Part shown: positions 3,001 to 61,094 of the stretch, piece by piece
Layout: every line of letters starts with the position of its first letter
Numbering within the stretch: the first letter of the stretch is position 1
Assembly (NCBI GenBank): GCA_030141605.1
Contig: JAQGDQ010000091.1
Span: 310,001-374,000, forward strand
Length of the DNA stretch: 64,000 nucleotides
From: Tubiluchus corallicola
Taxonomy: Eukaryota; Priapulida; Priapulimorpha; Priapulimorphida; Tubiluchidae
Direction of reading: 5' to 3'
Notes under the pieces: generated by a model
Databases searched by the model: none
What the model was told of the DNA's origin: nothing
What the model saw: only the letters and a program-made list of their open reading frames with translations
Position numbers and translations under genes: made by a program

Positions 3001-4055
3001 CAAGAATATTGTATCTATAGAGCAGTATTCTTAACCAGTGGACCACGCATAGGCAATTGTCTAGCACTTGACTAGCACTATTAAAGCAGTCTGATGAAAA
3101 AATCTTTGTTGATTTGCGTTTTTTGTAAATTGGGAGAAGGTTCAAAGAGCGGAAAATGATATAGAAATTTTTTCTAATGAAGGCTTCATTATTTAGTAGA
3201 ATTCAACACGGATATTTGCCTAAAGCCAAGTGTGGCCGTAGACTGGGGTGTCTGCGACACTTTCTTCTGAAAGCTAAGTGGGTCGTGAAACAAAAAAGGT
3301 TGACCTGGTGTGTATCAAAGGATCACCAGTCAAAGGACTGCCTATCGTTGTACCGTCACGGACAAACACCACTGGTCAAATATTCACCTGAAAAGCCAAA
3401 GGTCCTTTGCCTGCCCGCCGTTTTGTCCTCTGTCTGCGCGTCGCATTCCCTATTCAGTGGTATTTGCCAAATGAATGCACATGCAGAAGTTTTTCTCTTG
3501 CATTTTAACACTTTATTCCCATCGGTGTCATTTTGCATGTCGTTAAAATCTGCATTTTCTTCATCTTGTACGAATACGCACATTATGGCAGGAGAATAGC
3601 TCTAAATCATTACTTGCCTCACTGCTTAACGATCCCTGTTTTAAGCTTTAGGATGTGTTGATGAACCTACTGTAATGTTTTTAGTTTTGGTCCAAGTACA
3701 GATATGAATTTTATGATAATGACACGGTTCCATAGACAATAATATGCTCGTAAGAATGTTTTGCAACTCGGTTTCGGGTACATAAACTTACTTAGTAGGA
3801 GGTAGAAATGGATGATTGTGTCGTGGGTCACCGTTATGTGGGTTCACATCGGCAAAAGTACGATATGCTGATCTTCCATTTTAAGTTTTATTCAGCTGTC
3901 ATTTTTGCAAATGTTTCTATAAGGTTGGGCTCTTTCTCGGATACAAATTTTGGTTGGTATAACATGTAGATCTAGATCTGTGAGTTAAGTTTTTTATCCG
4001 CATCCGGTTTTATGCTGAAGAAAATTGTATTCGTACGTGCTTCACTATGGGCTTT
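1..4055. other. AT-rich non-genic stretch
   Basis: I see no recognisable gene here. A somewhat GC-richer patch at about 1690-2050 has a hairpin (8-bp arms 1862-1869 and 1881-1888) and ends in a good splice-donor-like CTCTAAG/GTAAGC at about 2050. An ATG in good context at 2223 opens a 12-codon frame that reaches a GTGAAA donor-like site. An open frame of 140 codons at 3177-3599 matches no family I know and overlaps an open frame on the other strand, so I do not call it a gene. The stretch may be intergenic or an upstream intron of the NCKAP5-like gene. Confidence 0.6.
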
Positions 4056-4334
4056 TTTATTATTATTATTTAATTTTCACATCAGTACAACATTACAGAA
4101 CAATGTACAAAAAATAAAGTAACCAAAATAATTAGCATCAAATCAGAAAAAAAAACGTAGGTCGTACATACTGCACTGCAGAACTCTGAAGAAGCTGAGA
4201 GCTTGTAAAAGCTTTCTGGAAATGTGAATAAACGTTGAGGAAAAATTGTGTGAAGAATTTAGATCGATGGGGGGTGGGGTGTATTGCGAAAAAAACTATA
4301 TTCTTAACTGATATTAAATGATAAAGATATAGAG

Positions 4335-4540
4335 AAAGATAGACATAAACTACAATTAATGTTTGCAAATTTGACAATTGAAAAAGATATACGTTATGTA
4401 CATATAATATATATATTTACAAAATAAACAAACCATAAGACATAGACAAAGATAGACAAATTACAATTAATGTTTGTAAATTTTTCAGTTGACAAAGATA
4501 TTCGTTATGTACATATAATTATATTAACAAAATAAGCAAA
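4335..4540. repeat. Degenerate tandem duplication in LINE 3' UTR
   Basis: Two diverged copies (about 4335-4430 and 4448-4540, period about 113 bp) share the order AAAGATAGACA, ACAATTAATGTTTG, AAAGATAT and CGTTATGTACATATAAT. They lie inside the 3' UTR of the LINE relic, so the duplication probably belonged to the element. Confidence 0.75.
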
Positions 4541-4564
4541 AAAACACATAAAAAGCACAGGTAG

Positions 4565-4762
4565 TCAATAATTGCTGAATAAATGATTTTTCATTACTTT
4601 CTTAAACTTATAAATTGAGTGAACTTGTTTTACAGCTACGGGGAGGGAATTCCAGATTTTAGGTGTAGTCATGCTTATAAAGTTTTTCATGGCATTGGTT
4701 CTACATGGCGGAATAATGTATTCGTTAAATCTGGTGTTATGGACTTTGGGGTTTAAACTCAC
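4565..4762 (-). pseudogene. LINE reverse transcriptase C-terminal fragment
   Basis: An intact 65-codon stretch forms the extreme C-terminus of the decayed LINE ORF2. It shows the conserved H-N-T-R, R-T-N and P-K-I-W-N-S-L-P positions, then a basic FKKVMKNHLFSNY end. The apparent initiator methionine is internal to the original polyprotein, so this is not an independent gene. It lies about 500 bp from the 3' tail of the element, which is its 3' UTR. Confidence 0.8.
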
Positions 4763-5410
4763 TGGATTTGCAAAAAAATTAGGGAGCAGTTTGTTATGGG
4801 TTTTATATATTTAAATACAAACATCGTAAGACACGAGATCGTCAACGACAGTGTATCCGACAGTCTTTAGTACTAACAGGATGGCGGTCTGGTAAACAAT
4901 AATGGATTCTTAGGAATTTTCTTTGTAGTGTACTGAGTTGTTTTAAGTTGGTTACGTATGTTTTACCTCAGAGAACATTACAGTCGCTAAGATAAGGTGA
5001 AATCAGCGTGTTGTACAAGGTTAAAAAGCTAGACTTGGTGAGACTACGTCGTAAATATGAGATTATTGCATCATTTTTTGCAACCTTATTACTGATGTTA
5101 CATTTTCGTGTAGTACTACGTCCAGGAATTTAGGTTGATGTATTCGTTCTATTGGACAGTCGTCTATTTTTAAGTTAAGCGTTGGCACAGTTTTGTTGTT
5201 AGAGTGAAAGATAATGTGCACTTTGTTGTATCAGGGTTTGATGATAACTTATTAGCTTTGAACCAGTCCGACTTTTCGATTCAATCACTGGAAGTGACTA
5301 AGTTTAATGTTGGCATTACCAGCAACTGCAGTAAGATATTCACTGATGTTTTTGAATCATATAATTCTCAGTTGATGATTGTTTATTTTATGTTGAATTT
5401 GTGTTAGATT

Positions 5411-8400
5411 TTAGCCTTGAATGCGAATTTCCTTTAATCCGCTTATTTGTCCGACAGATGTTTTTGATTGACAATTTTATCTATAGCATGTTCTGGCTAT
5501 TTAAACATTAGGTAAGCTTCAGTTTGCGAAATTTTCGCTCCTTTAAGTCACGAAGGCGAATATTAAATCGATAATGTCTTCTGCGTTTCATGGTGAATTT
5601 TAATATCCTTCAGAACTTTACTATAACTGTGATCCAACAGCAGCAAAGGTGGCAAACTTATAGCCCTGCATGTGCAGTTTATCCTTGTAATAAGTGTTGA
5701 AAGTCTATTATGAGCAAGCTAGAAATCAATACACTCTATGATTAATCGTTTGTTAAGATTTTATGATTAATTAAAATAATTGTAATCATAAACTACTAAA
5801 AATGAGCAGTTTCCGTTGTTTATTGTCTAGTCAAAAATATGCGTCAAATCCGGTCTGAGATAATTTATGGTTAGCAATTACCATTTTTGTGTGGCTTATA
5901 TAATTTTTATCCTGGTACTACAGCACCGTTACTGTTGTTGTTACCGCTGCAGCTGTTGTTGTTGTCAACTAAAGTTGAAGTAATTTTAGAATTTCGCACC
6001 ACCTGTTAATTTGGTTTATTCGAAACTGGCGTGAGTTTTGTAAAAATGCAGTCATGCGTGTACGTTAATGGTGTCTGTGGTTCTTGAGCATTGTATTGTG
6101 TACGGTATATCAGCTTTATCGGAAAGGGCCGTAATATAATACATGTAAAAGCCTACTTATATTAGTAGAACTTTCATTTAACACAATTCACTATTGGTTG
6201 CAGAATTACTAAGATATGCCTGACTTGTTTTGTTGAGTTCATTTAATTAATTATTTTGAGCTTTTGACGAATTACCGGCCTTTTCTTTGCGGCGTCATTG
6301 CGAAACGTACAGCTATACTTACTTCACTGTACGTAATATATGGGCACATAGTGAAAAAAGCAAAAAAAGCAGGGGTTCGATCTTATCAACGTCTAAAAGA
6401 AATGCAGACAGAACAGGATTGATTTTGCCAGATCTTGTCAGAATTGCTTTTTCACAAGTGAACGCAGTTAATCTTCTGATGGAACCTGATGAATGCTGCG
6501 ATAGTGCTGCCCCTCGTCTTCTATTCATATAAAACGGATTGACGTATTTAAAGCGAAATTAATAAGCATCAATTTGCTTAATTGAGGCACTGATGAGCCT
6601 GCCTGGGGATTATACTAATCTACTCATCTTTGAGACGTCAAGACGTGTACGTGTCTTTATAAAACTGCGTACATTACTTTTCCCATCATTTGAATTCCCG
6701 CTACTCCGAGCGACTGGCAGCATAGTCTGGCTTGAATGTATGTAGACATTTTTCCTTAATAATATAAGTAATCCACGCATGTGAAAAATTATTTTTTTTC
6801 AAGAAAGCATCCTGTTAAAGTCATGTTTAAGAAATTGCTGTATTGTATTATATTGGAGTTTCTTTTCAAGTTCTGAAAAAAGTCATTGTATTAATGCGTA
6901 TATTAATTTTCCAGGTATTTCCTTACATTTATATTTGTGTGTCTGCATTTATTTATATAATACGGATTTTCTCTCCAACTACTGAACAGTTTTTTACAAA
7001 TTAGTGTCACATTCCATAAATGCACAGTATAATCAATAAACTAAAAAAAGCTTGGAAAGTGGGACATCTCTAAATAAAGAATAGTATATAAAGCCCACTT
7101 ATTCCAGTTTCTTGTAATAGCATCCTGCCTTCCACCATGCAGGATTTCCTGGATAATTTGAATTGCTTGTAGATTCGTGCGTAACGGGGCTTTCCTTTGT
7201 GTAATGTTAGATGCTTCATCTCTCCAGCACGCAAAAGAAGCCATTTTCTGCTTACCTGGTTCTCATAATGACATGGATGGCTCGTACCTTTCTTTGTCGG
7301 CATCTCCTGCACCTTGTAATTCTGCAGCGGAAGTCGGGAGAGCGTGATAATCAGCATGAATGAATGGATTCGTGGTAACTGAGCTGTTATCTTTTCCATT
7401 TCCTGAAGTGTATCTACCTCGGTTTAGCTTACCACGCCAAGCTCTATTTTGACTAACTAGTGCAATGACTTTGTGGCCATAAAGGTGGTGACCTATGTCA
7501 CCTTGATCAACAATTGGCGACTCAATATTCTGATGGTCTACATTTGCATTGATTTAACTTTAATGTATGTTACTGTAAAATGAAGTAAATTAATTTGTCA
7601 AAAATGTTTTATTTTGTATAAGGAGCTTAGCATATTTTTTATGGTAGAGCAACAAAAAACAGTAAGATTGAATTGAAAAACGAAATTTGGTACCCCTGGC
7701 TTTTTCACAAAAATTTCCCAAACTAGAAATTCGATTGGCTCTTATATATCTGTGTCATCTTTGTATTGAAACTTGGCTGTATTTACTTCTGTATTGGAAC
7801 TGCACTGACGGTACCCACTGTAATCCATCTCAAATGATAGCTCAGATGACCTTTCATGTAATAATGTCAGTGATGTTTCAATATTATCATTTTCGTGTTG
7901 TGAGTACTTGTGTACGCTTCATGCTTTTAGTGAAAATTAATTTGTAGAAGACATAAAGAGAATCTAGACGAGCTGCATATTCTAGATGACAGAAACTGCC
8001 TGCTTCTCACGTTCAGTCGTTCACAACTATTATTAACATGTCATCAACATGTATCTAGTTCTTTTGTCTGGCTCGCGAGCAGTTTCTATTGTAGCAGTAC
8101 GCCTAGTTTCAACAAAAACTAATTTCAACTAAAAAAAGAGGGAACCCATCACTCATGTGAGTCATCTAAGTACATTGCTAATCATATTTGGAAATCGTTG
8201 TGGTGTAAAATTTGTCAAACACGCCGAGTGAGAGAGTATCTGTGCTCTCCTGTCCTCCGGGGGTTGCCCAATCGAAATTTTATTGGCGTTTTTGCATGCG
8301 GAATTCATTGATTAGCAGGAGGAGGACAATGGAATAAAATTAGGAGGGACATTATGTACAGCTGCGCGTGTTCTGCGCTCCGCCAATGTGTATCACGGTG

Positions 8401-36800: not shown

Positions 36801-39800
36801 GTAAAATTTATTTGTTTTTACACATGCATATATGTAAATAGAAAAATTTCACTTATTTTATACAGACCTAGAATTGTGTGAAACTTGTCACTATAGTATG
36901 ACGAACCTACCAATTCACTAATACACCACAGTGTGTTGTTTACATTTACATTTAGCATGCTTACAAATATGCTTACATTAAGCAATCTTCTTGATATTGA
37001 GAAGTTCATGAAGAATGTTATATAGGGCTCAACTATTGTTGTTGGAATTTTCATTATTTCTGTGTAAACAATACGCTGTATGGAACGTTGACACATTGAT
37101 CACTGATGATGCAGCATTTGTCATGTTATAGTTTTACAGTTTTGAGTTTGCATGAAATGTATTTATGAAGTCTTGCTGTTAAATATAATTAATACTTACA
37201 GAGCTTAAGAACGGAATGCATCAAGTTGCAGCAACGAGTATGGGACTTGGAAAAACAGAACAAGATGCTGAGCTTGCTGTTGCAGAGCAGATTGAAATCT
37301 GCTAGTACACAAGGAACTACTAATGATCACTCGCCTACTGCAGCTCGATCACCGAGTCATGACCAGTTAGCTCTCAGTTCCATTTTACCTCAGGTGAAAT
37401 CCTGTATTACTAAGTATTATTCTAGTTATTGGTAATTTATCACACTGGTGAATTTTGTTTTAAACAATTACATACTATAGCTTATCTCAGTTTGAGTTTT
37501 TAATTATATTTGAAAAATGCTTAAGTGAATCTGTATTTGGTCCTTTTGATTCAAAAGGTAATGTATAATTTCACGGTTTTTACTTGTAGCAACATAATAC
37601 CCAAAATAAAGACTTGTGATAATTTTGAGGAAGAGGGAAACCTTTTGTTATGTGTTCAGATTGTTTCTTCCCCTTATCGGCATTTTGCCATAGCTTTATT
37701 GCTTCTTGCTTAAGCAATAACTTTAGCTGTTTTCTTACTGATAATAACTCAGTGTGGCACATGTTTTGCATAGTATAGATGTTAGCAAGGCTCCATAAAA
37801 ACTAATCGTAGTAATACTTATTGTTAAGTACGTAGTGATAAATATACTGCCTTACTGTTAACAGACCCATGAGTTGTATGTTATCTTATTTGACTTGCTT
37901 GACTTGTGTGTTTTTGTACAGGTTTCACAGTGTAATATACGAAGCGGCAAGTCTCTGAGTCCTGCAGAACAGCTTGTGTTGTTGCTAAATGCCCAGTCTG
38001 GTCAAAAGAGTAGCTCAGAAAAACCCGTGGACTCTGACCTGTTTTTGCAGTTGCTAAATTGCCAAGATGCTGCAGATCAGAGACCATTTGCTAGCCAGCT
38101 TGTAAGCCACTTCCTACCTAATGGGAAGCAAGAATCACTACCAAACACTCAGAAGATACCTCCTGATATAAAAGATAAGGTTTGTAAATTTTCTGTTACT
38201 GGAAATATTGAAGGCTATATTTTCTTGCACAGTATTATTATCAATTTAACAAAAACTGCATTGAAAAACTGCAGACTTTGATAGTTATTTAAGCGAGATC
38301 TGCTAATAGCTGTACATTATTTTTATCCATGTTTTCTTAACTCAGGCGCTCTTAAAAAACTTCGCCAGTAAAAGAAATTTTAGTAATATATAGAAATGTT
38401 CTTTCACTGCCGGTTTAAAAAATGTCATGCTTCCAATTTATTAGTTTGCAAATTTGCATAATCATGAAAGAGACTAAGAGAAATGTTTAACCAATCAGTG
38501 CAATCTTACAGGCATAGTAGTACATATTGTATTTAAAGAAATGTCTATTTTATTGCAGCAACAGTATCAGATTACAAATGATGCACAGGAGAGCTATTTG
38601 AATGGACCAAGTAACAACAGTAGCTGCTCACTGTATAATACAAGATCTGCTCTGCCTGTATCAAGAACCGTCCCTCCATTCAGGGACGATGGCCCGGTGA
38701 GCATGTCAAGTCCACGACCAAACCGACAGTCTTCTCAACTCACAGACAGTTTAACCGAGAAAAGCCAGGTTAATCCTACTCGGGATGATAAGCCAGTTGT
38801 TATGAGAAAACCAAAAGTAGCACAGGATCCAATAGCTAAACTGCACGAAATGGATCTTGATTTCTACAGCAACGATGAAGTTTGTAATTACGCTGATCAG
38901 TCTCAAGAGAAAACTGAGGACAATAAGCCCAATGAGAACATTGCTCAGTTTAAACGCATGCAAGAAATATTAAATTTCCATGCTAGTGGAATTTTTAAAC
39001 ATTCTGATCCAGATACATCTGTTGGTGCAGAGTTATTAAAACTCTCTGATTCATTTAATTCTGGAAATAGTGACGGTGCGCAACAAGAGAAAAAACATGC
39101 CCTTAAAACTGACCGGTCTTCGCTTTTACAAAACTACAACAATTTGTCGCTGTCTTTGAGTGAACTGATAGGAAGTACTTCATATAGTTTTGATGAAGGT
39201 GATAACATAATATCAGAAGATGCCAGCACAGCTGATTCAGCATCCTTGTCTAGCCAGTTACAAACACTAATGGATACAATGAAATACGTACAGTCAACAG
39301 TGGATGGTATTAGTGAATCATCTACTAATGAGCAATCTTCAGATATTCAGACAGACAGACTTTTTGTTCCGGATGAGATGTTGGCTTCAAATGAGGGAAA
39401 GTATTCACCTACAAGTGATGTAAATCTTCCTAACATTCACGTGAGTCCAGACAAAAAGCCTGCAGCAAGCTTGCATCAGAAGCTCTTACAATCAAATGAA
39501 TCTCCGACATATCAAGCAGCTAACTCAGAAATCGTTACTTCTGTGGTAAAAAATGGTGAAATATTTGTTTGTAGTGAATCAAGGAGACACAGCCTTGGTG
39601 ATAAAGATAGCAATATTCCATATGAGTGTTTGGAACAGCCATGTCCAACCCGCCCAAATTCTCTTGTTATAGGTGGCCCTAGTGAAGAACAAGTGGAAAG
39701 AGGTGGTTCTGAACATGTTGATGCTAAATCAGATCAGCATAGTAAAGAGGATGAAACAAACACACCAACTCCCACCAATTCTTCTAAATCAACTGTGAGC

Positions 39801-42800
39801 TTTCATTCCGAAGGAAAAAGTAATGTAGGGAAACCCAGCGATTCATTGGTTATTGAAAAATCAGCTTGCACAGATAATGCTAGCAATAAGCAGCCTGAAT
39901 CTGCTTTTGAAAGTATTGTAGATGATGCTGGTAACAAAGATCCAATCTCAGCTGTCATAATTTCTAGTACTGATTTAAAAAATTCTAATCAAAATGTAAG
40001 CTGTTCCTCAGAAGCAACTAACAGTATAGCCAGTCAAAGGAAAGATGAGTCAGATCCTGTGCAAGATATTAAGCAGTCTCCTTCATCAGGATCAGCAACT
40101 AGCAGTGATGCATCACCTAATGAAGGGGTTACATTCCAAATAGAGCAAGAAGCAAAGAAAAGACGTAGTGGTCTAGTTGAAGAGGCAACAGTTAACTCTC
40201 CAAGTGGAGAAAATCAGACTTCATCTGCAAATGCTGCTAAACCAGTTCACAGAGAATATGTTGTAAATTGTGCTTATGATGTAGTTACTGGTTCTAGTGC
40301 AGTGATTACTGGCTCTGTAAAATCGATAACTGGTGAAACAAAGTCTTCTGTTTTATCACCTATTGATCATGTTGGCCAATTCATAGGGAGCCGTGATGAA
40401 GGTTACTCTACCATGTCTAGTCGATCTAGTGATATGACTGAGTCCAGATCTGTCGATGGAGCTAGTAGTAGAAGCCCCTTACAGAGTCCGGTAAGAAAAC
40501 GCGAAGTCGTTGAAGGAAATGTTAATAGTATTGAAGAAGACTGTAATACTGTTAAACGGATCACTGACAGCTGGGAAGTTTATCGAGTTAATGACCCGCT
40601 TTGTCAAGATTTGTCAAGTCCAAAAAGATCCAGCAGTAGCCCTCGAAGCTCTATTCACATTGGTTCTCATCCGTCCAGTCCAGTGAAGACTGTATCATCT
40701 CCTAAGCTAGTTCATTCACCAAAACGATTTTTTACTTCCCCCCAAAGAAACAGTGATGTAACTGCTGGAGCAAAATTTATACATAGCCTACCCGACCATC
40801 ATGAGGAACAAATTCTTTCAGTTACAGATGATGGAAGTCATCACATGAGCTATGTTGAACAAGAAGGTCCCCAGTATCCTAGATTGGCTTCTCCAACAAT
40901 AGTGCCAAGGTATGTTAAACGTAAGTCTAACAGTTTACCAGGACATTATGGGCGCGGCAGAGCCATCTGCATTAATCTAAATGAATACAAATCTAGCAGT
41001 CTGGATGACTTGGTTGGTGGTGATGATTCCAGCACCTGTGACAGTGATAGTTCTTTTGGTTCTAACAAAAGCACAGAACGGGTGCGTCAGCTGTGCAAGG
41101 TGTTTGAGCCTGATGGTGAAGCAGATTCTGTATGCCATTCTGAGTCTTTAAACACTGTCTCTCCGGGTGACACTGACAACAGTTACCAGCACAATTCATA
41201 TCCACCATATTCTCGTTCTGTGAAACGGAAAACTCGCACATGTACACAGATAATTTCCCTCTCAAGTGATGATAATTCCCAGGTGATCGCAGTGAGTAAA
41301 TACAAAGGTGCAAAAACTGCTATGGGCATCAACGGACTCATTACAAAATGGAAGCATGAACGTTTGATAAATTCTGATTCTAATCTAAGTGATTTGACTC
41401 CAGATACGAGTGTGCTGTATGGAAGCCCAGATAGTTCAACGTCGTCTGTTATACCACCATATGTACCTGCAAGCAGTGATTACTTGGGAACCGGTGATTG
41501 GCATCAGGTAGAGCGAAATCGTAGTTTAACTAAAAAGAACAGTTTACCTACCACTTGGGAAATTGACGAGCTGGAACCAGCCCCAGAAACACATAGCGAA
41601 ACTGTGCGCAATAACATTAATGATATGGCTAACAGTGTTCCAACTTGTTGGATGTATAGCGAACCGCAGCTGCCACCTATGAGTAGAAAATACAGTCTAC
41701 CTGAGAAATTGTCTGATGTGAAAAAGGCTCAGACAGCTTCAGAATTAAAGAACAAAAGCAGTTTATTTAATAAACATATTAGTACACCAGGTCGGATACC
41801 TCCACATGGTAACGCAGCTTCAGTAGATAAAACTACAAAACCATCAACATTATCTCATTTACCTTCATCAGAACCTACCTCAGAAGCTCTGCCATCATCT
41901 GTGCAGGCAAAAGCAGCAAAAGGATTGTTTGGCAATAGAACAACTCTTCCTGGACTTGTAAATAAAGAGAAGTCATTTGAAAAGAAACCGTCTGCAACCA
42001 CAACGAGTAAAAATAAGTATTTTAATTTGTCGCCACGTAAAAGCCAACCAGTAACCAGTGGAACGGATTCTTTACTTGGAAACGATGATCAGAATTTGAT
42101 TCCGCCTTCTAAAGCTATAAGGGAGAGACATAGTTCGGGTAGCAAAAGCTGTGCTTCTCAACTTCATACAAGTATTCCTTCTAAGCTTCCAATTTCTGGC
42201 AGTCAAACTCAGAAGCAAGGTTTGTATTACAATTTTTCTTAAAAATTGGTAGACTCTAAAAATGACTTTGTTTGCATTCTAATCACTTTACTACAAATGC
42301 ATTTAATTTATTTAGTTTAGTACAAAAGCACTTGAATTAAATATGTTAGTATTTAACTTTGTGTAAGAGTGTTTGGTTTAGTTCCAAGCTGTTTTGTTGC
42401 TGTAATTTACATTAGTTTCATTTAATTTAGTATGACAGATGCATAGGTTAAATATACAAAATTAGTTTGTGCATTATTCAATGTGTTTTAGTATGAATTT
42501 TATTAGCCAAATTGCTTATTTACATTTTATTTGTCTACAGTGCCTTGGCGATCTCCACTGCCATCCATCAGCACTACCAACCCTCCTTGCAGTAATGCTC
42601 CGGAACGTCCCGCATCTACCACAGGCTTTGATGAAGATGATCTAGCAGCATTCGGTGATGAAGCAGCTGTAAAACTGCTAACTCCATCTGAGGACGAAAG
42701 CGAAGGAGATATGTCCGGTGACAGGCGAGACAGGTTGTCGCCGCCAGAACACGCTCGTGCCATTTCCACCCCTGCATCGTCATTGAAACAACCAAGTGCA

Positions 42801-45800
42801 GCTAACTCTGTGAATATCAATGTAAATGACTGTTTGGTAAGGAGCTTCTCGTATTAATAAGTTCATTTTTGTATGTTTACATGGATTCTTTTTTGGATAT
42901 ATCCACTGATGTACATCACATAATTATACTGAAAGTATTTCTTTAGGACTTTGTGAATTTTTTTTATTAATGTTCCTGCTTACTATAACTAAGTCCATTA
43001 GTATAAACATGTGTGCAACGTAAAATCTGTTACTGTTAAGGCTGTCTGTAGTTGTGGTTTTAAAGCCGGTAAATCTTCGAAAGAAACTTCACTGCTGAAA
43101 TTCAAAAATTGTTAACAGTGCGTTTTTGTAATTCATTGCTACTCTAAAACTAAAAAATGTCTAATTGTACAGGATTCAGTGCTAAGTGATGACAGCTCTG
43201 ATATATCTATTGATGACATTAATGTGAATTACACTGATGTATGGAAAAATACAGGAGAGAAATCATTGCTGTCATATGGTAATGGCAAAGAGGTAAAACA
43301 GCTGCTTATGCAGTGTTTGTTAAAAAATTAATTCTAGAGCAAAGTAATTAATTGTCATTGATATAGATGTATCAGCATTTATCGAAGTGAGAAATGATTT
43401 TTTATTTTTGGAAACAAGTAAGTTATTAGGTTTTTTATGTTTCATAATTGGTTTTAGCTTTTTGTAGACAGCATTAATGACAGTACTAATTCACATGCAT
43501 GTTTTTTATAGTTGCTGGTATTGCTAAGTTCAGTGTTCAGAAGAATTTCTGAAATATATTGCAGGAAGGAAAAATTACATAATGTGTGCTGGATTTGTAA
43601 CTTTTGCTTCTTCCAACTCTTCATTTTCTCTGCTTAGCAGTCCGTTAATGATTTATGTTCCGTTATTTTTCACCGTGTATTTAGTTGAACATTCTAAACA
43701 GTGATTTGGTTACTCTAAATTTTCATGTATTTTAGGTTACTGATTGTGCTCAGGACAAAACAGACGATAATCATTCCTGGAATTTGGAAGAAGGTCATGG
43801 CAAATTATCTCCACCAAATAAAGATATCAATAATCTCTTGAAAAATGAAGATTTAAGTCCAGTGCGTAGCAACAAAAGTGGCGATTATTCGATCATTACA
43901 ATGACAGATCTTAACTGTACAGTGGGAAGTACTGAAGGAAATGGGAAGTCTTCTTCCAGCGAGTCATGGGTGAATATAAGCGACCCAAGGTCACCAACTC
44001 ACAGTAGTCAGACAGACAGCACATCTACATTGCAAGATTTGTCGCCTGATGGTACAAGCTCTGAGCACGTGGGTCAAACTAATACTAGTTTTAGCGATAT
44101 GAGTACAGATATTGCTGTTGTTAACAACAATAATTATATGTTAGATTTAAATGTGAGTGAGGAAATTCGTGATGATTCCGGTAGACCGCATGTTGATTGT
44201 GAACAGGCACTTCCTTCTCGTAAAGATGTTGCTGAGAGTGATAATGAAAAAGACGATGAGGTACCATCACCTTCTTCAAATGGTAGTTCGTCATTTGAAC
44301 TAATTCCGTCAGATTTTATCATTAATTCATCCACTGAATTTAACGAAAATGAAACGCAAGAGAAAAGTTCAATGAAAAACAAAGATAAATTCAAAATTGT
44401 ATCACCTAAATCCAAACTAGCAAAGCCGGCTTCATCTTTATCCACTTCTGCAAAACTCGGTGACAGCAGAAATTCTCTCAAACCAGTTGGCAAAGTGTTG
44501 CCAAATCTTCATAATGTGCCTGATACAGAAATTACCAATGCTGCTGAAAAATTTGTATTAAAAACTGTGGGAGATAATGCAACAGATATGAGCCCATCTG
44601 AGAGCAAGGCTGTTACCCAGGCAGCATCAGGGCATTTTACTTCACACTTACCATCCAAGGTGACATGTAAGAGTAAACTACCAACAGCTTTCTCACAACC
44701 ATGTACAAGTCCTAAAAGGCAGTTGGCACTAAAACCGACAGACAAGAATTTGCCTAGTAATGGTCAGGCTTCTTTTTCTGCATCTGCTAGAACACAAAGT
44801 GCACTTTCTCCACCACGTAGTCCTATTAGGAAATCTGATGTTGTGGTACCACCACGAAGCCCAACAAAAAAGCCATCAGAATTTAAGAGACTATCACCGT
44901 CACCAAGTCCCATCAAGTCCTTTACTCCTGACTCGTCAGAGAGTCCAAAAACTTCTCATAGTCCTTTTAGAGCTCAAAGTGCTAATCAGTCACCTGGTGG
45001 CAGATCAATTACCAGTCCATCCAGGATGCGAACTCCCGATTCTTCCTCGTGTTTTAAGCTCGAAAAAGGAAGCAGAAAGGAGGGAACCGGTAACTCATTA
45101 AACTCTCCACAGAACGTAAGGTCACACATTGCTAGTTTAAAACAGTTTAGTCAGAGGACAGCAGCCCAAACTACACATGATTCACCGGAAAAAAGTATGA
45201 GCTCCCAGAGTCGGAGACCTGCATCGCCTCTTGCTCAGGCATCATCTGATGGTGTTGACAGTGTGATTCAGTCACATTTACGCAATTCTCCATCTACTAG
45301 TCCTGTAAGATCGACACCAAGTCCACAAGCTTCAGAATGTGTACTAGACACAACTCCAAAACTTATTAAAAAGGGAATTCCTAAACCAGCCATCAAACAA
45401 AACCGGCTCAATAAAAGTCCCTCAGTTTCAAAATCGACTGAAAATGGAGTTGTGAAGAGTAGACTTCCTGGATTGAAATCAGGTGATTTCAATAAACAGT
45501 TTCCAACTATAAGCTCACCCCACTTAACTAGACCGCCTTTGAAAAGTGGCACAGCAACCAGTGTTATGAAAGTCACCAGTTTCATGAAGAATGCTTCAAC
45601 CTCAAAGCCACTTCCTGAGAAAGTTGAAAAACCACTGACACCAAAAAGTAAATTTTCGCAGTTCGGCTTTCGGTCACCCAAAATAGAGCGAAGTTTGAAA
45701 CTAGGTAGAAAAACGGGCGAACACAATTCCTCCTCTACCAACGAGCAGTTGAATGCCAATGGATGTCTTTCAAAAAGCCAGAAAAGCAAAAGTGATTCAA

Positions 45801-46982
45801 AGATTGTTACTTCTCCAAAAATTGGAAGGCTGAAGGCAGGAATTGGAAATGAAAAACAGTCTAATGGGACAGCTAAACGAATACAAGCAACTTCACAGCA
45901 GGTTTGTTTTTAAGTGCTAAGTAAAAACTTTGTTATATTAAATTAATTCCTCAGAAGCAAAAATATTCTGATAATTGCAGTTTGATGATTCTTTTCTATG
46001 CTTCCAACGCAAGCTTCTTTTTAACTAGGTTATACATAAGGGGGTATTGCTTTACCCCGATGATCACATTTATGGCTTATTTATCAGTTAGCTCAATCTG
46101 TCTGTCAGTTATTAAACAGGTTTTTTTACAAGATTTTACTATTTTAGAAAGAACTCGATGAGCTGCATTCAGCTACCAATGTTAGCAGTGATGGAGAAAG
46201 TGACAATTCCATAGATTGCAGTATCAGTCCATCATGTGATACTCACAGTTAGTAGTTTTTATGATATTGATGTTGATTTTATAACACTCAACTTTTTCGA
46301 CAAAGATCGGGTTAATCTACTTTGAAACATGTATTTAATAGAGTAAAGTTACAGTAGTACAAGCTAACAGCATTTTTACAAGTTAGTTTTAATTGGAAGA
46401 CTTCTGTTGTAACATTTCAGTGTATTTTATAGAATCTAGAGCTTCATATATCCTGGAAATGTTTTATCCACATTTGCTTATGTAACTGCAGAAATTGCAA
46501 GTTATACATTACCTCTTTACAATAGTTTCTTACTAATGGCAACCTTTTTGATGGTTTTTTTGGTTGGAGATACGTATTTTTAATTGAGCCAGAGCAATAG
46601 GAAAAGTTTTCTTGAGTAAAAATTATATTCTGTTAAGTGATGTTCTTCAAGCGAGAGAGAAATTGATACATTATTTTTAATTTTAGGTAAAGATAAACAA
46701 AAATCTCCGATACGACCTCGAAAGCCATTCTTCGGCATCAAAGATTTCTTTCATCGATTTAGCGATAAAGAGAAGCAGGCATTGCACTCATTTGATTTCT
46801 TAGCAGAGGAATCAGACTTTCCATCTCCTGATGACAGTACTGGAGTTTCACCAGCCATTATTAATGGAGCCGGCGGAAAAGTGGAGCGACTGTCAGAGAG
46901 CACTGTGGAGTCTCCGGAAAACATGTCCGAAAATGATTTTTCCATGAGTGACACTTGTGCAGAGGATTATCAGACAGACTAA
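33709..46982 (+). CDS. NCKAP5: Nck-associated protein 5-like (NCKAP5/NCKAP5L homologue), 5' incomplete
   Basis: Twelve exons splice in phase (33709-33842, 34455-34635, 35092-35133, 36215-36385, 37202-37393, 37922-38179, 38559-42219, 42541-42836, 43173-43292, 43736-45901, 46148-46247, 46687-46982). Together they encode 2538 residues plus stop, and all introns are GT-AG. The first 240 or so residues are coiled coil and match the vertebrate NCKAP5/NCKAP5L N-terminal block in order: an ENERTLRIEAEYRMQE segment, MEDVIKQL, an acidic linker, YERCLDEIANQVVQA, then RVWDLEKQNKMLSLLLQ. The remainder is a long Ser/Pro/Asn-rich, probably disordered tail with many SP sites, which is also typical of the family. 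By family knowledge these proteins bind Nck SH3 domains, and NCKAP5L (Cep169) works at centrosomes and microtubule plus ends. The exon(s) with the start codon and the beginning of the coiled coil were not found. Confidence 0.9.
34455..34635 (+). CDS. NCKAP5: NCKAP5-like exon b (coiled coil)
   Basis: Residues 45-105. The acceptor is a T-run plus TTAG and the donor CTG/GTAATT. It begins MEDVIKQLMQCKGKIDELQQ after the split codon, matching the family's MEETVRNLLQ position, and continues as coiled coil to KRMEAL. It ends in phase 0. Confidence 0.9.
35092..35133 (+). CDS. NCKAP5: NCKAP5-like 42-bp acidic microexon
   Basis: Fourteen codons (LSALGESEQDGEEE) lie between a CTTTTTTCAAG acceptor and a GAG/GTAGGG donor, phase 0 to phase 0. 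Inclusion keeps the frame between exons b and d and supplies an acidic linker where vertebrate NCKAP5 has VDEDSRSESSSTDEG. It may be alternatively spliced, since skipping it also keeps frame. Confidence 0.72.
36215..36385 (+). CDS. NCKAP5: NCKAP5-like exon d (core conserved coiled coil)
   Basis: Fifty-seven codons (residues 120-176). This is the most family-diagnostic exon: FRALVERLKALEQQNSNL, then EYERCLDEIANQVVQAVMAQK, near-identical in pattern to vertebrate NCKAP5. The acceptor is TTTGCCAG and the donor AAG/GTTTTT. Phase 0 at both ends. Confidence 0.95.
37202..37393 (+). CDS. NCKAP5: NCKAP5-like exon e (end of coiled coil)
   Basis: Sixty-four codons (residues 177-240). It carries SLRTECIKLQQRVWDLEKQN and KMLSLLLQSRL, matching the vertebrate LREECVKLKTRVFDLEQQN block, then turns Ser/Thr-rich. 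The acceptor is ATACTTACAG and the donor CAG/GTGAAA. Confidence 0.95.
37922..38179 (+). CDS. NCKAP5: NCKAP5-like exon f
   Basis: Eighty-six codons (residues 241-326), phase 0 to 0. It contains SPAEQLVLLLNAQSG and DSDLFLQLLNCQDAADQ, two short Leu-rich amphipathic stretches of unknown role, and ends IPPDIKDK. The acceptor TTTTTGTACAG/GTTTCACAG could also be used 9 bp downstream (CACAG/TGT) without a frame change. Confidence 0.88.
38559..42219 (+). CDS. NCKAP5: NCKAP5-like giant exon g (disordered Ser/Pro-rich)
   Basis: An exon of 3661 bp (1220 codons plus one base) between TTTATTGCAG and AAGCAAG/GTTTGT. The product is low-complexity Ser/Asn/Asp-rich. It has a tandem S/T-P block at about 40609-40755 (SSPKRSSSSPRSS, SSPVK, SSPKL, HSPKR, TSPQR), a DEGYSTMSSRSS motif, three basic-x-x-S-L-P motifs, and TSIPSKLP near its end (about 42168-42191). 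Long central exons are also typical of the vertebrate family. The internal ATG at 38541 lies in the intron's last bases and is not a start. Confidence 0.95.
42541..42836 (+). CDS. NCKAP5: NCKAP5-like exon h
   Basis: A 296-bp exon that completes the split Val codon from exon g (phase 1 to phase 0). It encodes PWRSPLPSIS, the acidic FDEDDLAAFGDEAAVKLLTP and SEDESEGDMSGDRRDRLSPP. The acceptor is TTTGTCTACAG and the donor TTG/GTAAGG. Confidence 0.92.
43173..43292 (+). CDS. NCKAP5: NCKAP5-like exon i (40 codons)
   Basis: Phase 0 to phase 0, 120 bp. It is acidic: DSVLSDDSSDISIDDINVN, then WKNTGEKSLLSYGNGKE. The acceptor is AATTGTACAG and the donor GAG/GTAAAA. Skipping would keep frame. Confidence 0.88.
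43736..45901 (+). CDS. NCKAP5: NCKAP5-like large exon j (Ser/Pro/Lys-rich)
   Basis: A 2166-bp exon (722 codons), phase 0 at both ends, between TGTATTTTAG and CAG/GTTTGT. The N-terminal third is acidic and Ser-rich. The rest is basic and SP-rich, with two PxxPx(K/R) SH3-ligand motifs (PPRSPIRK and PPRSPTKK, about 44807-44880) and repeated SPxK/R sites. It contains KSRLPGLKSG and the basic SPKIGRLKAGIG segment. Nck SH3 binding is inferred from the motif type and family name, not shown. Confidence 0.93.
46148..46247 (+). CDS. NCKAP5: NCKAP5-like exon k
   Basis: A 100-bp exon (33 codons plus one base), KELDELHSATNVSSDGESDN... The acceptor is TATTTTAG and the donor CACA/GTTAGT. If the donor were not used, an in-frame TAG would end the protein two bases later. 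The next exon restores a Ser codon across the junction, which supports splicing but leaves a short alternative C-terminus possible. Confidence 0.85.
46687..46982 (+). CDS. NCKAP5: NCKAP5-like terminal coding exon l
   Basis: A 296-bp coding part ending in TAA at 46980-46982. It begins with the Ser completed across the junction, then a strongly basic/aromatic RPRKPFFGIKDFFHRFSDKE. An acidic Ser-rich end (ENMSENDFSMSD...EDYQTD) follows. The acceptor is TAATTTTAG. The phase fits exon k exactly. Confidence 0.92.
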
Positions 46983-49679: not shown

Positions 49680-49935
49680 TTATGGTTTTAATATAAAATA
49701 AAATATTATAATTCGAAATAAAATATTATAGTGGTTTTGGTGAGAAGAAATGCTAATTTATTGCTTGGAACCAAACTGCGATTTTCTTGAATTCGTTGTT
49801 ACACAAATTTGTGTCGAATACTATACTATTATTTTGCTATATTGCTAGAAATACATGATATAATTTGCACTTGCAAATTAAGAAAAGTGCCAATAGTGGT
49901 GACAAGGTGGAACCCTAAGGAACTTGACGCAGCAT
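49680..49935 (-). mobile_element. LINE reverse transcriptase relic
   Basis: The minus strand shows the RT signature LRQVP-stop-GSTLSPLL (about 49890-49930), corresponding to VPQGSxLGPLLF with the Gln codon changed to a stop. Further on, NNEFKKIAVWFQA (about 49770-49805) corresponds to the ELKKIxxWFxANKL thumb block. The catalytic FADD box between them has been lost. It looks like the same broad type of non-LTR element as at 4.06-5.41 kb. AAATAAAATATTATA is duplicated at 49696-49710 and 49716-49730. Confidence 0.7.
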
Positions 49936-50073
49936 GATATTTTACATGATATATTAATTAGTGGTAAACAGTTTTTTTACTACTTTGGAAACAACTTGAG
50001 CCCAACTACGACATGAACTATGGTTATTAATATCTGCCCTTTTAACTACAAACCAAGGTATAATGATTGTTAA

Positions 50074-50099
50074 GAACGCGTCCGCGAGAAAACCATGCA
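50074..50099 (+). repeat. Left terminal inverted repeat
   Basis: A 26-bp terminus immediately inside the left TTAA. It differs from the right terminus at three positions only. Confidence 0.8.
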
Positions 50100-52677
50100 A
50101 AATCGAAAAATTCCGGCACAAGGTTAGGTAAACCGATTCAGACCAAAGTTCGAGTAAGAGGTCTACTAGTCACTAGTATTCACTATGTGAATCCGCTTGG
50201 CCCAACTCCTCATAGTAGCAGAGTTACGGCATAGACCGATTTTCATGAAAAAATGCCTATTCTCTATTTTTTACTCATATTTGAAGGATTAGTCATGCAG
50301 CAACTACTGAGTTTGAATAGCTCTGACTCTGCACAGTATTGGATCTTGTTATCTTCTCCAAAATGACTTTTCGACTTTTGTCCCAAACCCCCCTCTTTCG
50401 GTTCGGGGGTCTTTAAGCTCGCATTACGCACAAGATGCAAATACTCAGTCATTTCAAAGTCTTATATCTCACCCACTGCGGGGGCGGGGACAAAAATATC
50501 GATATGTATGTGAATAGAGCATCCCATCCCACTATGCTGTAGTGACAATTTCGATGGAGCGAATTTCCACCCTATTGTAAAAGACCCCTGAAAGAGGCAT
50601 ATATCAGGGTGAAAATATAGGTTCATTGTTTAAACTACCGACAGGATTGGACTCCATCATTCAAGATGGCGGCCACTGCTGAACTAAAATGTTCGTTTTC
50701 TGGGCTGTTTAGCAGCGTTAAATGCGGCATTCTGACTAGTTATCCGTACGAAATGAATATTGTGAATCTATTAGCCTGTACTAAAGACACTGGACCGCAT
50801 TTAGAGCGCTTGCATCTTCAAAAAAATGAAATATCTACGGAATGGAAATTGCTTCTTGCAAGGACTGGAAAATGTTTTATGTACTGTTCATTTTCTATGC
50901 TTTGTAAATGTTATGTACAGGTTATTACCTAGTTATTACTCATTGTCTTACATAGGCGTACAAGCCAGGACACAAAGAAAATTGCCCTAAATCTGAGCGA
51001 ATGCCCAAAAAATATGGGACAGACTTGATATCATTTGTCCGGTGATTTTTTGACTGTAAAACATCGAAAATATTTGTGCCATTGGCGCAGTCATTCAATC
51101 ACACTATTAATATTTTTTGTCAGAAGTATCGATTTTGTGCCACAAATACATTTTAGGCGAAGAAAAATTTTCTGAGCTAAATATCACCGCCATCCCCCTA
51201 GAAGCGGCCCATACGCTCATATTGTCTCATGTTTAGACTATAAAATTTTCATTTTATCACTTTCCCCATGACATATTTGTCTATATTTCTGTATCTATCT
51301 TCTAGTGATAATCTACCTGCATCGATAATTCTTTCTCTATTATTTAGATATTATGGTTTTGATTACTTGTACTACTCTTCAGTGATAGGATTATGCTGCT
51401 ACAATGGAAACAGTATTTTGGACTTAGAGAAATTAATTCTGCCTGAGTTTTGTAGTTTTTTCATTTTTTTGTACTGTAATTCATAATCTTCTATGTATAG
51501 CCATGAAGCTTATTCATATAAAAGTATAAAAAATGAACGGATGTATAAAAATGAACGGATTTCTAATTCATATGTATATACCAAGTGTTGTCAGATTCTT
51601 TCGCTAGCAATGACTCTCAATCTTAACAATCGGTACTTCTTTCTATTAGAGGGCTTATTGTTTAGTCTTTCCTGGTATCCATTAGCGATTCAGTGTGTAG
51701 AGAATGCCCTGAATCAGGGTCGGACTCGGTACTAGGGGCATGCATGATGTCCTGTCCTGAAATCCATCAGAAGAGGCAATTATTCATATTTGTAGTCATA
51801 TAAAAATTCCGACATAACTAAACCAATTTAAGATGAAATTCGCAAATTTCTAGCAATTTCCATGGCAAAGGAATCTATTGCTACTAGGAAATGAGAGCAC
51901 TAGTCACAGAAAATGCAGGTTAAACGTGGCTAAATGTCTACTGTCATATACGACCTGAGCCAAGTATGTCTACTTTTTACACATGGACGGAATTACTATG
52001 GAAAGTAAAAGAAGTGTGTTGATATGGCAATTTTTTCTAACAGTGCCCCTTTTATATAATGTCATTCATGATATTATCTCAGCTCGTGCGTTTTCATTAA
52101 ATTTAGAATACAGATCTGTCACTTATAATCCAGCATATAGATATTGAAAAACTACAAAAAAGGCGAATTTTGCTGATTTTTGTGAAATTTTAAAGTGCCT
52201 GTACTAAATACTGAAATAGGCTTCAGCGAATTTTCTTTTTTATATTATTAGTGAGGATGATGGTTAACACATACATGAAAACAAGAAGTTCTGTAGTCCC
52301 GCAGTGGGCGAGTTATGAGCCTTACAACTTAACCTCTCCCTGGACTCTTAACAAAGAGCCGAATTTGAAAAATCCCGTTCTCTGATACTATTAATAGTAT
52401 GTCAGAAAAAGTTAGGATATCAGAAGACAATGTGTGGGTCTATGTACCAGCCAACTTACATCGACCCATCTATAACAGTTTCCACAGGAGAAAAAGTTAA
52501 AATAACACCCCAAAATAGCGATTTTTTGCCTCTTTTGAGGTCAATTTCTTGATGTGGTCATTTCTCTGCTAATAGTAGCTCGATCGATCTGATATCTTGG
52601 TTACATGGTTTTGGGGGGTCGCCCTTCATGTTAGAAAAAATGATACAAATTCGTCACCCCCCCCCCGTGCCACCCTC

Positions 52678-52703
52678 TGCATGGTGCTCTCGCGGACTCG
52701 TTC
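52678..52703 (-). repeat. Right terminal inverted repeat
   Basis: The reverse complement of the left terminus, immediately inside the right TTAA (23 of 26 bases identical). A run of C lies just inside it (about 52656-52666). Confidence 0.8.
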
Positions 52704-52707
52704 TTAA

Positions 52708-54560
52708 GCTGTCAAGCCACGATTCTCGTTATCAATAAAGCCCATTACTCCGTTATAACCGGTTCGTTAAATTACTACACACATCGCAGTAATACATAAT
52801 ACAGTATTATTATGATACGACTCGCAATTAGCGTTATAATGTCGAAAAAAATTTGAGCCATATAGCTGTAGGTGTCTGGATTATAAGGGAAACAAGCATA
52901 TCCATATGACATATGACTGCATTTCCATTGTCTAGCTTACTGGAAAACTAGAAGGTGCACAGCTTTGCAATAGTTACTCTATCCGGAAGTACTTACATGG
53001 AAGACGAGTTATGAAGATGTAGCAGGGATCCAGATTACGTCCACTCCGCTAAGAGTCTTAATCCAAGATGATTCTTCTGAGCCATATTGCCGCCTCAATT
53101 TCTCGTCTGAGGATCTGAAGCTCGTGGTTATAACGGAAGCCAAGTCAGATTACCAACGTCTTAACAGAAGCGTTAATCTGCCTGTCTCCTTTAGCGCCTG
53201 CGTGTCCCGACAAAACTGATTAAAGGAGTAGAAAATTTCCAAACTATTTCCCTTTTTAAGGTTACGAACCAAGGCGTTGATACTTGATTTCAATTAAGAC
53301 CAAACGGTCCAGGAGAATTTTCTCAGTAAAGCTGATGCTACGAAAGAAGTTTTTGTATCAGTACTAAACACTTAGATTTAGCGTCAGTATTAAATACTTA
53401 GCGTGGGCGCTGAAGCAGCAGATGCTAAACTAATTGACCGACGAACAACAAAATGAGCGACTAATCAACAGAAGATTAACGACGACCGACCAACCAATCC
53501 ACTAAAGAACAAACGAACCTACAAACCACTCAACAAACAATCAATCAAACAACCAAACAAATAAACAAATAAGCAAGCAAGAAAACAAACAAAAAACAAC
53601 CAACACATCAACAACAAAGTAAGATATCAACACCATGTATTACCTTCTAGAAAAAAGTGATTGATAGCTAGCGCAAATAAATGTACCTGCTGTGTTTTTC
53701 CTACAAGTAATTAGGAGTTGCAAATATTTTGGCTTCCCTTCCGTATTTGCATAATAAGTTGTACTTTGGTGCACAGTCCGTGATTTAGCCACTCAATTCA
53801 AACAACAGGGTGATGCCATAAAAAGGCTGATGATGATGACGATGATGAGGAAGGGGAGGGGAGGAGGAGGAGGAGGAGGAGGATAACAACGTTGACGGCA
53901 ACAGCAGCGATGACAATTACCATAGTGATGGCAAGCCGTGACAATAACATTGACAAAATAGTAATATTCACAGTACAAACTTATCTCTATGCGGCCTATG
54001 GGCCATGTTGCACCACGTCTATGGGATAATTAAAAGAGCGTTAAATTTTGTGATCCTAAATTTCACGCGCGCAGCCATTTTAGAATTGTCAGTTTCATTT
54101 TTCATAGTAGCTGTATGGAGCTTATTAAAAGTATATCGTTTGCTGTGTTATATGACTCCCTTTACTCCACTGGTTATGGTTTTTACTATCCCCAGTAGAC
54201 TGATTAGCTGTCCATTGCAAAATAGTTTCTACTCGTATTTCATCTTCAAATCCTTCTCAGGGAAACAAACTGGTGGTAATGATGGTCTAGTCACTAGTAA
54301 GGGATTAGCGGATTAAGGGAGCTTGCGGTGGATTTGGCGCAATTTGTGTCTAGTTGTTATCTAGAATTATTGAATAATTAAGAAACATCACTGCCATGAG
54401 TATTAATTTGTATTATTATGTGAATCAAATATCAATCACAACATGTCGATATTTAGAAAATTGCAAGCGGTTGAACTTCATGCAATCATTGCATTTTTTT
54501 CAGCAAAAATTACAGCCCTACTACCTGCAAGACTCCATAGTCCATTTATAAATAAATCAC
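52708..54560. other. Intergenic sequence with simple repeats
   Basis: No gene. It contains CAAA-rich degenerate tetranucleotide sequence at about 53511-53610 and a GAT/GGA tract at 53826-53884. A 103-codon open frame at 54005-54316 has no recognisable domain and is not called. Confidence 0.6.
53826..53884 (+). repeat. (GAT)n-(GGA)n compound microsatellite
   Basis: Purine-rich trinucleotide tract: about six GAT-like units, then AGGGGAGGGG, then uninterrupted (AGG)n. It produces a polyproline artefact frame on the minus strand. Confidence 0.95.
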
Positions 54561-54826
<266 letters not shown>

Positions 54827-60018: not shown

Positions 60019-60507
60019 TCAGTGTGGCTGTTGCCAAGCTCCCTCCATTCTCCATACAGAAAAGGCATAACTGAGTCTCTCGTGTGCCACGTAACTGCAA
60101 CTACTGGCCATCTTCTGGTCAATCTCCTCACTTCTCAGCACCTGATACAGAAAGTCGATGTATCTGGCGGCTAGTTTTAAAGTTTGGATTTTGCTTAGTT
60201 TATCTGACGGCAATGTCGGTATGATCTTACGTAGCGATGTGAATGCTTCGTTCAATGACTGTGTCCGTTGTCGTTCTCGAACGTTAGCCAACACCCGTTG
60301 ATTCTGGAGTTCTTCGTACGTTTGAGGCGCAGCTCTGGTTTTGCGATTTTTTCCTTCGTCTCCACTGCTGCCATCCTGCTTGTACTTTCTCTTCCTCGAC
60401 AGCCTTTTCTCGTGGTCTAGGTCCAAAGTGGTGGTTCCCATATTGGAATCATCCATGAGATTGTTGTGCATCATGTGAAGTGGGTTCAATTCTCGCATGG
60501 CAAACAT
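60019..60507 (-). CDS. twist: Twist-family bHLH transcription factor
   Basis: An intact 162-residue protein from a single exon. Residues 36-41 and 54-58 are basic NLS-like clusters. The bHLH spans about 69-122: basic region [19 protein letters not shown], loop [10 protein letters not shown], helix 2 [18 protein letters not shown]. The C-terminal WR (Twist box) motif is at about 138-159 ([20 protein letters not shown]). Family knowledge: Twist dimerises with E/Daughterless proteins on CANNTG E-boxes and drives mesoderm, mesenchyme and EMT programmes in the nucleus. The first Met has G at -3, and an in-frame stop lies upstream at about 60530. A CAG acceptor-like site (60522-60524) just before it suggests a possible 5'-UTR intron. 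The N-terminus is short and lacks vertebrate TWIST1's Gly-rich stretch. One extra Ser precedes the WR motif. Confidence 0.97.
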
Positions 60508-61094
60508 TGCAATGTGCGACCCTGATGTAGAAAATTAAGAACATTTGCGTCAACCGGTAGATAGTTGGAAAGTTTCTGGACGCGCTGCGTTACGCCTGCT
60601 TTAGTACAGTTTAGGAAATCGGAGGCGGAGCATGCGCTGTTGCTGTTACTAAACTCGCATTCGTCATCAGCTTAGCCACGCCCATAGCGTAGGTACATAA
60701 ACTCTTACGCGCAGCATCTCAGTAACTGCCTTTTGAAAATGATAATTTCATTAAAAGATACCACTGCTTGCAGATTGATGGAATTAAGCCATTATATATA
60801 AATTTTACATTCTGATTTCATACTAAACATTTAATTGTAATGATTTCATCACACTTTGATATTCAGCGCTTAACAAAAGGAGCGCTTAACAATAATTTTT
60901 AAAGTTAATGATTGCTAGAATCCGACTCTCTTGCTTCGCACAAAACTAAGCCAACTTAATTTCAAATGTACTTGTAAGTGTAAGTATGTCTGTGGACGAA
61001 TGAGATTGGTTTACCACTTTGCTGCTACTGTGCTTTTAGTGATATTTTGTAATTATTGTGTTTATTCTTGTGAAGTTGTCTGTGTTGAGAATTT
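60508..61094 (-). promoter_or_regulatory. twist 5' region / probable promoter
   Basis: A GC-richer, CpG-containing patch at about 60550-60720 directly upstream of the coding start. On the minus strand it holds GGGCGTGGC (a KLF/CACCC-type box, about 60675) and GCATGCTCCGCC, but no convincing TATA box. From 60730 on it is AT-rich. The transcription start cannot be placed from sequence alone. Confidence 0.4.

Follow-up and report, generated by a model that had tools for sequence, protein, structure and literature searches.

A large non-autonomous TTAA-flanked DNA transposon family in the genome of Tubiluchus corallicola

In a 64-kb stretch of genomic DNA from the priapulid Tubiluchus corallicola (referred to as the window), two nearly identical inverted sequences face each other across about 2.6 kb, each adjoining a TTAA tetramer, which raises the question of whether they bound a mobile element and, if so, which kind of transposase would move it. 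The segment at 50070-52707 (+ strand) measures 2638 bp with its TTAA tetramers included and is among at least 40 matches scored in the genome. We consider it a copy of a large non-autonomous DNA transposon family that inserts at TTAA and has a majority sequence of ~2.76 kb (probability about 0.9). The family has many dispersed copies with a star-like spread, and its TTAA is duplicated at the target site.

The left terminal inverted repeat (TIR) occupies 50074-50099 (+ strand; family majority GAACGCGTCCGCGAGAAGACCATGCA) and the right one 52678-52703, where the minus strand reads GAACGAGTCCGCGAGAGCACCATGCA. They sit directly inside the TTAA tetramers at 50070-50073 and 52704-52707 respectively, so that 50070-50099 and 52678-52707 form an inverted pair of 30 bp (TTAA plus 26 bp) with 27 of 30 positions identical. 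When inverted pairs were scanned for across the window (ungapped 30-base frame, at least 25/30 matching, span up to 6 kb), the two ends of the element were the sole pair reaching the threshold in 64 kb, and each of eight dinucleotide-preserving shuffles gave zero pairs. Further, TTAAGAACGNGTCCGCGAG occurs twice in the window at up to three mismatches, against an expectation of 0.02. The near-identical inverted ends inside two TTAA tetramers, as described in a first-pass annotation of this locus, are thus confirmed. Among the copies described below, all 21 left ends begin with GA (the bases following TTAA being GAAC, GAGC, or GAAT), and 18 of 20 right ends finish with TC; one finishes with TT (L024), and the remaining one (L009) is rearranged. 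Rfam gave no match anywhere in the window, and the TIR patterns gave no match in viral contigs.

A search of the host genome for further copies had been proposed as a check in the first-pass annotation, and such copies were found. In the genome searched (343.5 Mb, 2344 contigs, with the window at C1030:310001-374000), a 501-bp left-arm query gave at least 40 scored matches among 93 candidates, the window copy included, and the 39 others are 93-96% identical. An internal 1001-bp query, for which scores were likewise given to 40 of 93 candidates, returned at least 42 matches. A single locus assembled several times may account for a few of the 40 left-arm matches (C2264, C1787, and C2138, which have near-equal scores and mirrored positions). 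Twenty copies were taken with their flanks, and the right end was placed in 19 of these and in the window copy (L001); L002-L008 lie within or beside L009-L015. Sixteen of the 20 copies first taken fall between 2400 and 3000 bp, with lengths of 2642-2786 bp, and together with the window copy they make up a 17-row alignment whose majority sequence is 2762 bp long; L013 (right end unplaced) and L016, L019, and L021 (size outside 2400-3000 bp) were omitted. A 20-row alignment additionally includes L030, L031, and L033, with L029 and L032 (cut by a contig end) left unused. Relative to its sisters, the window copy (2638 bp) is missing ~112 bp after element position 553, as seen by BLAST (break at element positions 551-556, corresponding to 50622-50624 in the window).

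Any two of the 20 full-length copies are 93.7-97.1% identical (mean 95.4%), individual copies lie 1.8-3.4% from the majority, and 678 of the 870 variable columns are singleton-only. Their tree is star-like: the tips are long and the inner branches mostly short, with good support for a few of the latter. In the 17-copy set, CpG positions diverge from the majority by 6.5% and other positions by 2.2%. Based on this star-like pattern and the low divergence, we conclude that one or a few near-identical source copies gave rise to the family in a burst.

Of 21 copies, 20 carry TTAA at the left end; of the 20 in which the right end was also placed, 17 carry it there and 16 carry it at both ends. By inspection, the outer flanks are unlike from copy to copy. 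The first-pass annotation had looked to unfilled sites with one TTAA, and these are provided by the sister copy L012, which is inserted within another dispersed repeat (diverged, with relatives ~71-82% identical over the matches) and whose joined flanks align through the junction to unfilled relatives. One relative (L020:1942-1752) reads GATTAAATGTTTAG and a locus common to L010 and L003 reads GATTAAAGTTTAG, both with a single TTAA; in the third (L012:4303-4516), which reads GATTACATG, the site is altered to TTAC, so that the expectation held in two of the three. The right TTAA of L012 itself now reads TGAA. Since two of the three unfilled relatives carry a single TTAA, the tetramer is a true target-site duplication, established at a sister-copy site in a diverged repeat, and the two tetramers flanking the window copy are assigned accordingly. 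L009 occupies, in the opposite orientation, the matching TTAA in the repeat type that hosts L012. At the right end of L009 (L009:3730-3815), an additional TIR-like segment is present on the outer side of the first one, and it is this outer segment that adjoins the TTAA, beyond which the sequence runs on into the repeat; this is a duplicated transposon end, either used as such or gained later.

Besides the 30-bp ends, the only matching parts of the two arms are an imperfect inverted block of ~110 bp located ~385 bp from either end, at 50457-50567 (+ strand) and 52213-52323 (minus strand). With the first 30 bp removed, the best local arm-versus-arm match in the window copy scores 21 (shuffles: mean 12.1, max 17, n=300), and a score of 21.5 is obtained when the arms of the family majority are compared in this way (shuffles: mean 13.2, max 19.5, n=300). 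The mirrored inner motifs listed in the first-pass annotation (CCCACTGCGGG, ATGTATGTG, and TTCG.TG.AGC) are therefore real and colinear. Its further proposal, that the element is of fold-back type with inverted arms of ~500 bp, draws on these colinear blocks ~385 bp from both ends, which score above all 300 shuffles, but fails on the arms as a whole, whose end-to-end alignment from base 31 to base 560 scores 1.0 (shuffles: mean 2.6, max 12.5, n=300). As the whole arms lack an inverted match, we describe the element as having a 30-bp inverted end and a separate subterminal block on each side, and a fold-back structure is highly improbable. Direct repetition is limited to short units, with two tandem 18-bp units at 51529-51564 (+ strand) and a longest direct repeat of 19 nt in 49900-52900.

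The first-pass annotation saw no transposase in the element, and we detected none in the family: the longest stop-to-stop frame in the 2762-bp majority sequence is 103 aa and has no Pfam match. This frame contains the exon-like start AAGATGGCGGCC, from which an open reading frame (ORF) with no known domain extends in the window copy (50666-50932, + strand). Pfam scans of the exon-like ORF, taken from the window and from L016 and in one case starting at 50672, gave no match, and against PDB nothing significant was obtained (matches at E 0.38 and 0.88 only). Over its first 150 bases, 20 of 56 unique changes are synonymous against 16.05 expected (P 0.14), which is not significant evidence of selection. 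This ORF and its start context, which resembles animal promoters, recur in several copies as well as in the majority sequence, and the element could also be of Pack type, having captured the start context AAGATGGCGGCC and the first exon from the 5' end of a host gene. Such a capture would be compatible with the other readings considered here, but it is unlikely, as the ORF has neither a Pfam match nor significant selection and the exon might equally derive from a lost transposase gene.

Larger copies were considered as possible autonomous versions and rejected, because no transposase was seen in L016, L021, and L029 by inspection and by scans of a minority of their ORFs. In L016 (5716 bp), ~928 bp are inserted close to majority position 1040, and other repeats together with the end of a related family replace majority positions 1855-2384. 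By eye, an insert at L016 ~3777-5954 shows CCACTGGGGCGGGTATT-like ends in inverted orientation around a long core of CAGA-rich repeat, and is possibly another DNA transposon; a 171-aa ORF within an insert of L016 gave a match under the cut-off. L021 (3236 bp) has a nested insert of ~480 bp at ~2532-3014, which includes a GA-rich simple repeat, and L029 comprises two partial copies, with reverse-transcriptase-like ORFs (by eye) beyond the second. As for ORFs in the flanks of other copies, one of 948 aa beside L018 has a PDZ match just under the cut-off, one of 560 aa beside L026 matches TMEM175, and one of 310 aa beside L015 has no domain match.

Elsewhere in the window, a CAGA tetranucleotide array of ~60 copies (96% matching) lies at 54582-54820, and a ~111-bp unit is present in two tandem copies at 4324-4540. 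An ORF at 60019-60534 (minus strand) encodes a bHLH domain (Pfam HLH) that, judged by eye, appears Twist-like. Two serine-rich ORFs at 38478-42242 and 43736-45913 (1254 and 725 aa respectively) have no Pfam match and are perhaps exons of one gene.

The copies, the TTAA counts, and the ends together bear out the first-pass description of a TTAA-flanked, non-autonomous element of ~2.6 kb with ends unlike those of piggyBac, and the TIRs bound many dispersed copies. MITEs are usually shorter than 500 bp (PMC2872659), and at 2638 bp the window element is too large for one, as are the sister copies of 2642-2786 bp. A piggyBac-type transposase, with the family as a non-autonomous piggyBac derivative with unusual ends, would account for the TTAA duplication, which the two have in common; it is nevertheless improbable, as the CC[C/T]T terminal motif, given as the piggyBac hallmark in that source (PMC2872659), is absent and the 21 left ends read GAAC, GAGC, or GAAT. 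Kolobok elements, in contrast to piggyBac, are characterized by TTAA specificity and 5'-RR and YY-3' ends (PMC9587614). As the GA...TC ends fit the RR...YY rule, TTAA is duplicated, and piggyBac ends are absent, we give the driving transposase a slightly better than even chance of being of Kolobok type. The first-pass suggestion of a Kolobok-like element is compatible with the duplication and the ends, which make Kolobok a candidate superfamily. A Sola3 or an undescribed TTAA-specific transposase is a less probable alternative. Sola3 uses a TTAA target, and a related end in L016 (see below) starts with TTAA-GAGTC; no measurement favors either group over Kolobok, whose RR...YY rule the ends satisfy.

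The related end lies at L016:5954-6363 (minus strand), next to a TTAA within this copy of the 2.6-kb family, and belongs to a related but distinct family (TTAAGAGTCATTCCGCGAG...). The end itself, TTAAGAGTCATTCCGCGAGAAAACCATGCAAAA, adjoins the internal TTAA of L016 and begins with TTAA-GAGTC. It aligns with the left end of the 2.6-kb family over the first 69 bp (score 26.0) and with the right end over ~57 bp (score 18.5), both being scores without a shuffle reference. Past the first 45 bp, the left comparison scores 16.0, not clearly above its shuffles (mean 11.8, max 16.0, n=200), and the right comparison scores 10.5, not above its shuffles (mean 12.0, max 19.0). Judging from these alignments, it is plausible that a single transposase acts on the outermost tens of bases in the two families. 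An undescribed TTAA-specific lineage made up of the two families, with a transposase that engages each end at two sites (the outer TIR region and, for the 2.6-kb family, the subterminal block ~385 bp in), is an improbable reading.

With a Kolobok-type transposase as the favored reading, the family can be compared with known TTAA elements. The Xenopus T2-MITE, a non-autonomous Kolobok element, has in common with it the TTAA target, RR...YY ends, similar copies, and the lack of a transposase, but starts with AGGRR, whereas the element here, a candidate for the Kolobok type, starts with GA and is ~2.7 kb long (PMC6004289 for the T2-MITE). KolobokP likewise combines TTAA with RR...YY ends, and its non-autonomous families in oyster are of similar size (1,738-3,261 bp), but its terminal direct repeats of ~450 or 660 bp, as given in PMC9587614, have no counterpart here; KolobokP was ruled out on these grounds, given the 19-nt maximum for direct repeats reported above. 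The coral CMITE, a piggyBac-type MITE, also duplicates TTAA and lacks a transposase, but measures ~100 bp and ends with CC[C/T]T (PMC2872659), in contrast to the 2.6-2.8 kb and GA ends of the present family. Four end strings of the family and its relative had no related occurrence in the open-licence PMC texts; the one match to an end string was in a calf-nutrition paper, unrelated by title and abstract. We regard this as a new family of a familiar kind, the non-autonomous TTAA transposon.

In the proposed mechanism, a transposase encoded elsewhere in the genome would recognize the ends of the element in trans, excise it, and insert it at a TTAA tetramer by cut-and-paste, and the tetramer would be duplicated on insertion. 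As an ordinary DNA transposon, the family leaves the knowledge of transposition unchanged. It is cleanly bounded and its TTAA target is established, which helps both repeat masking and the hunt for its transposase in the host genome.
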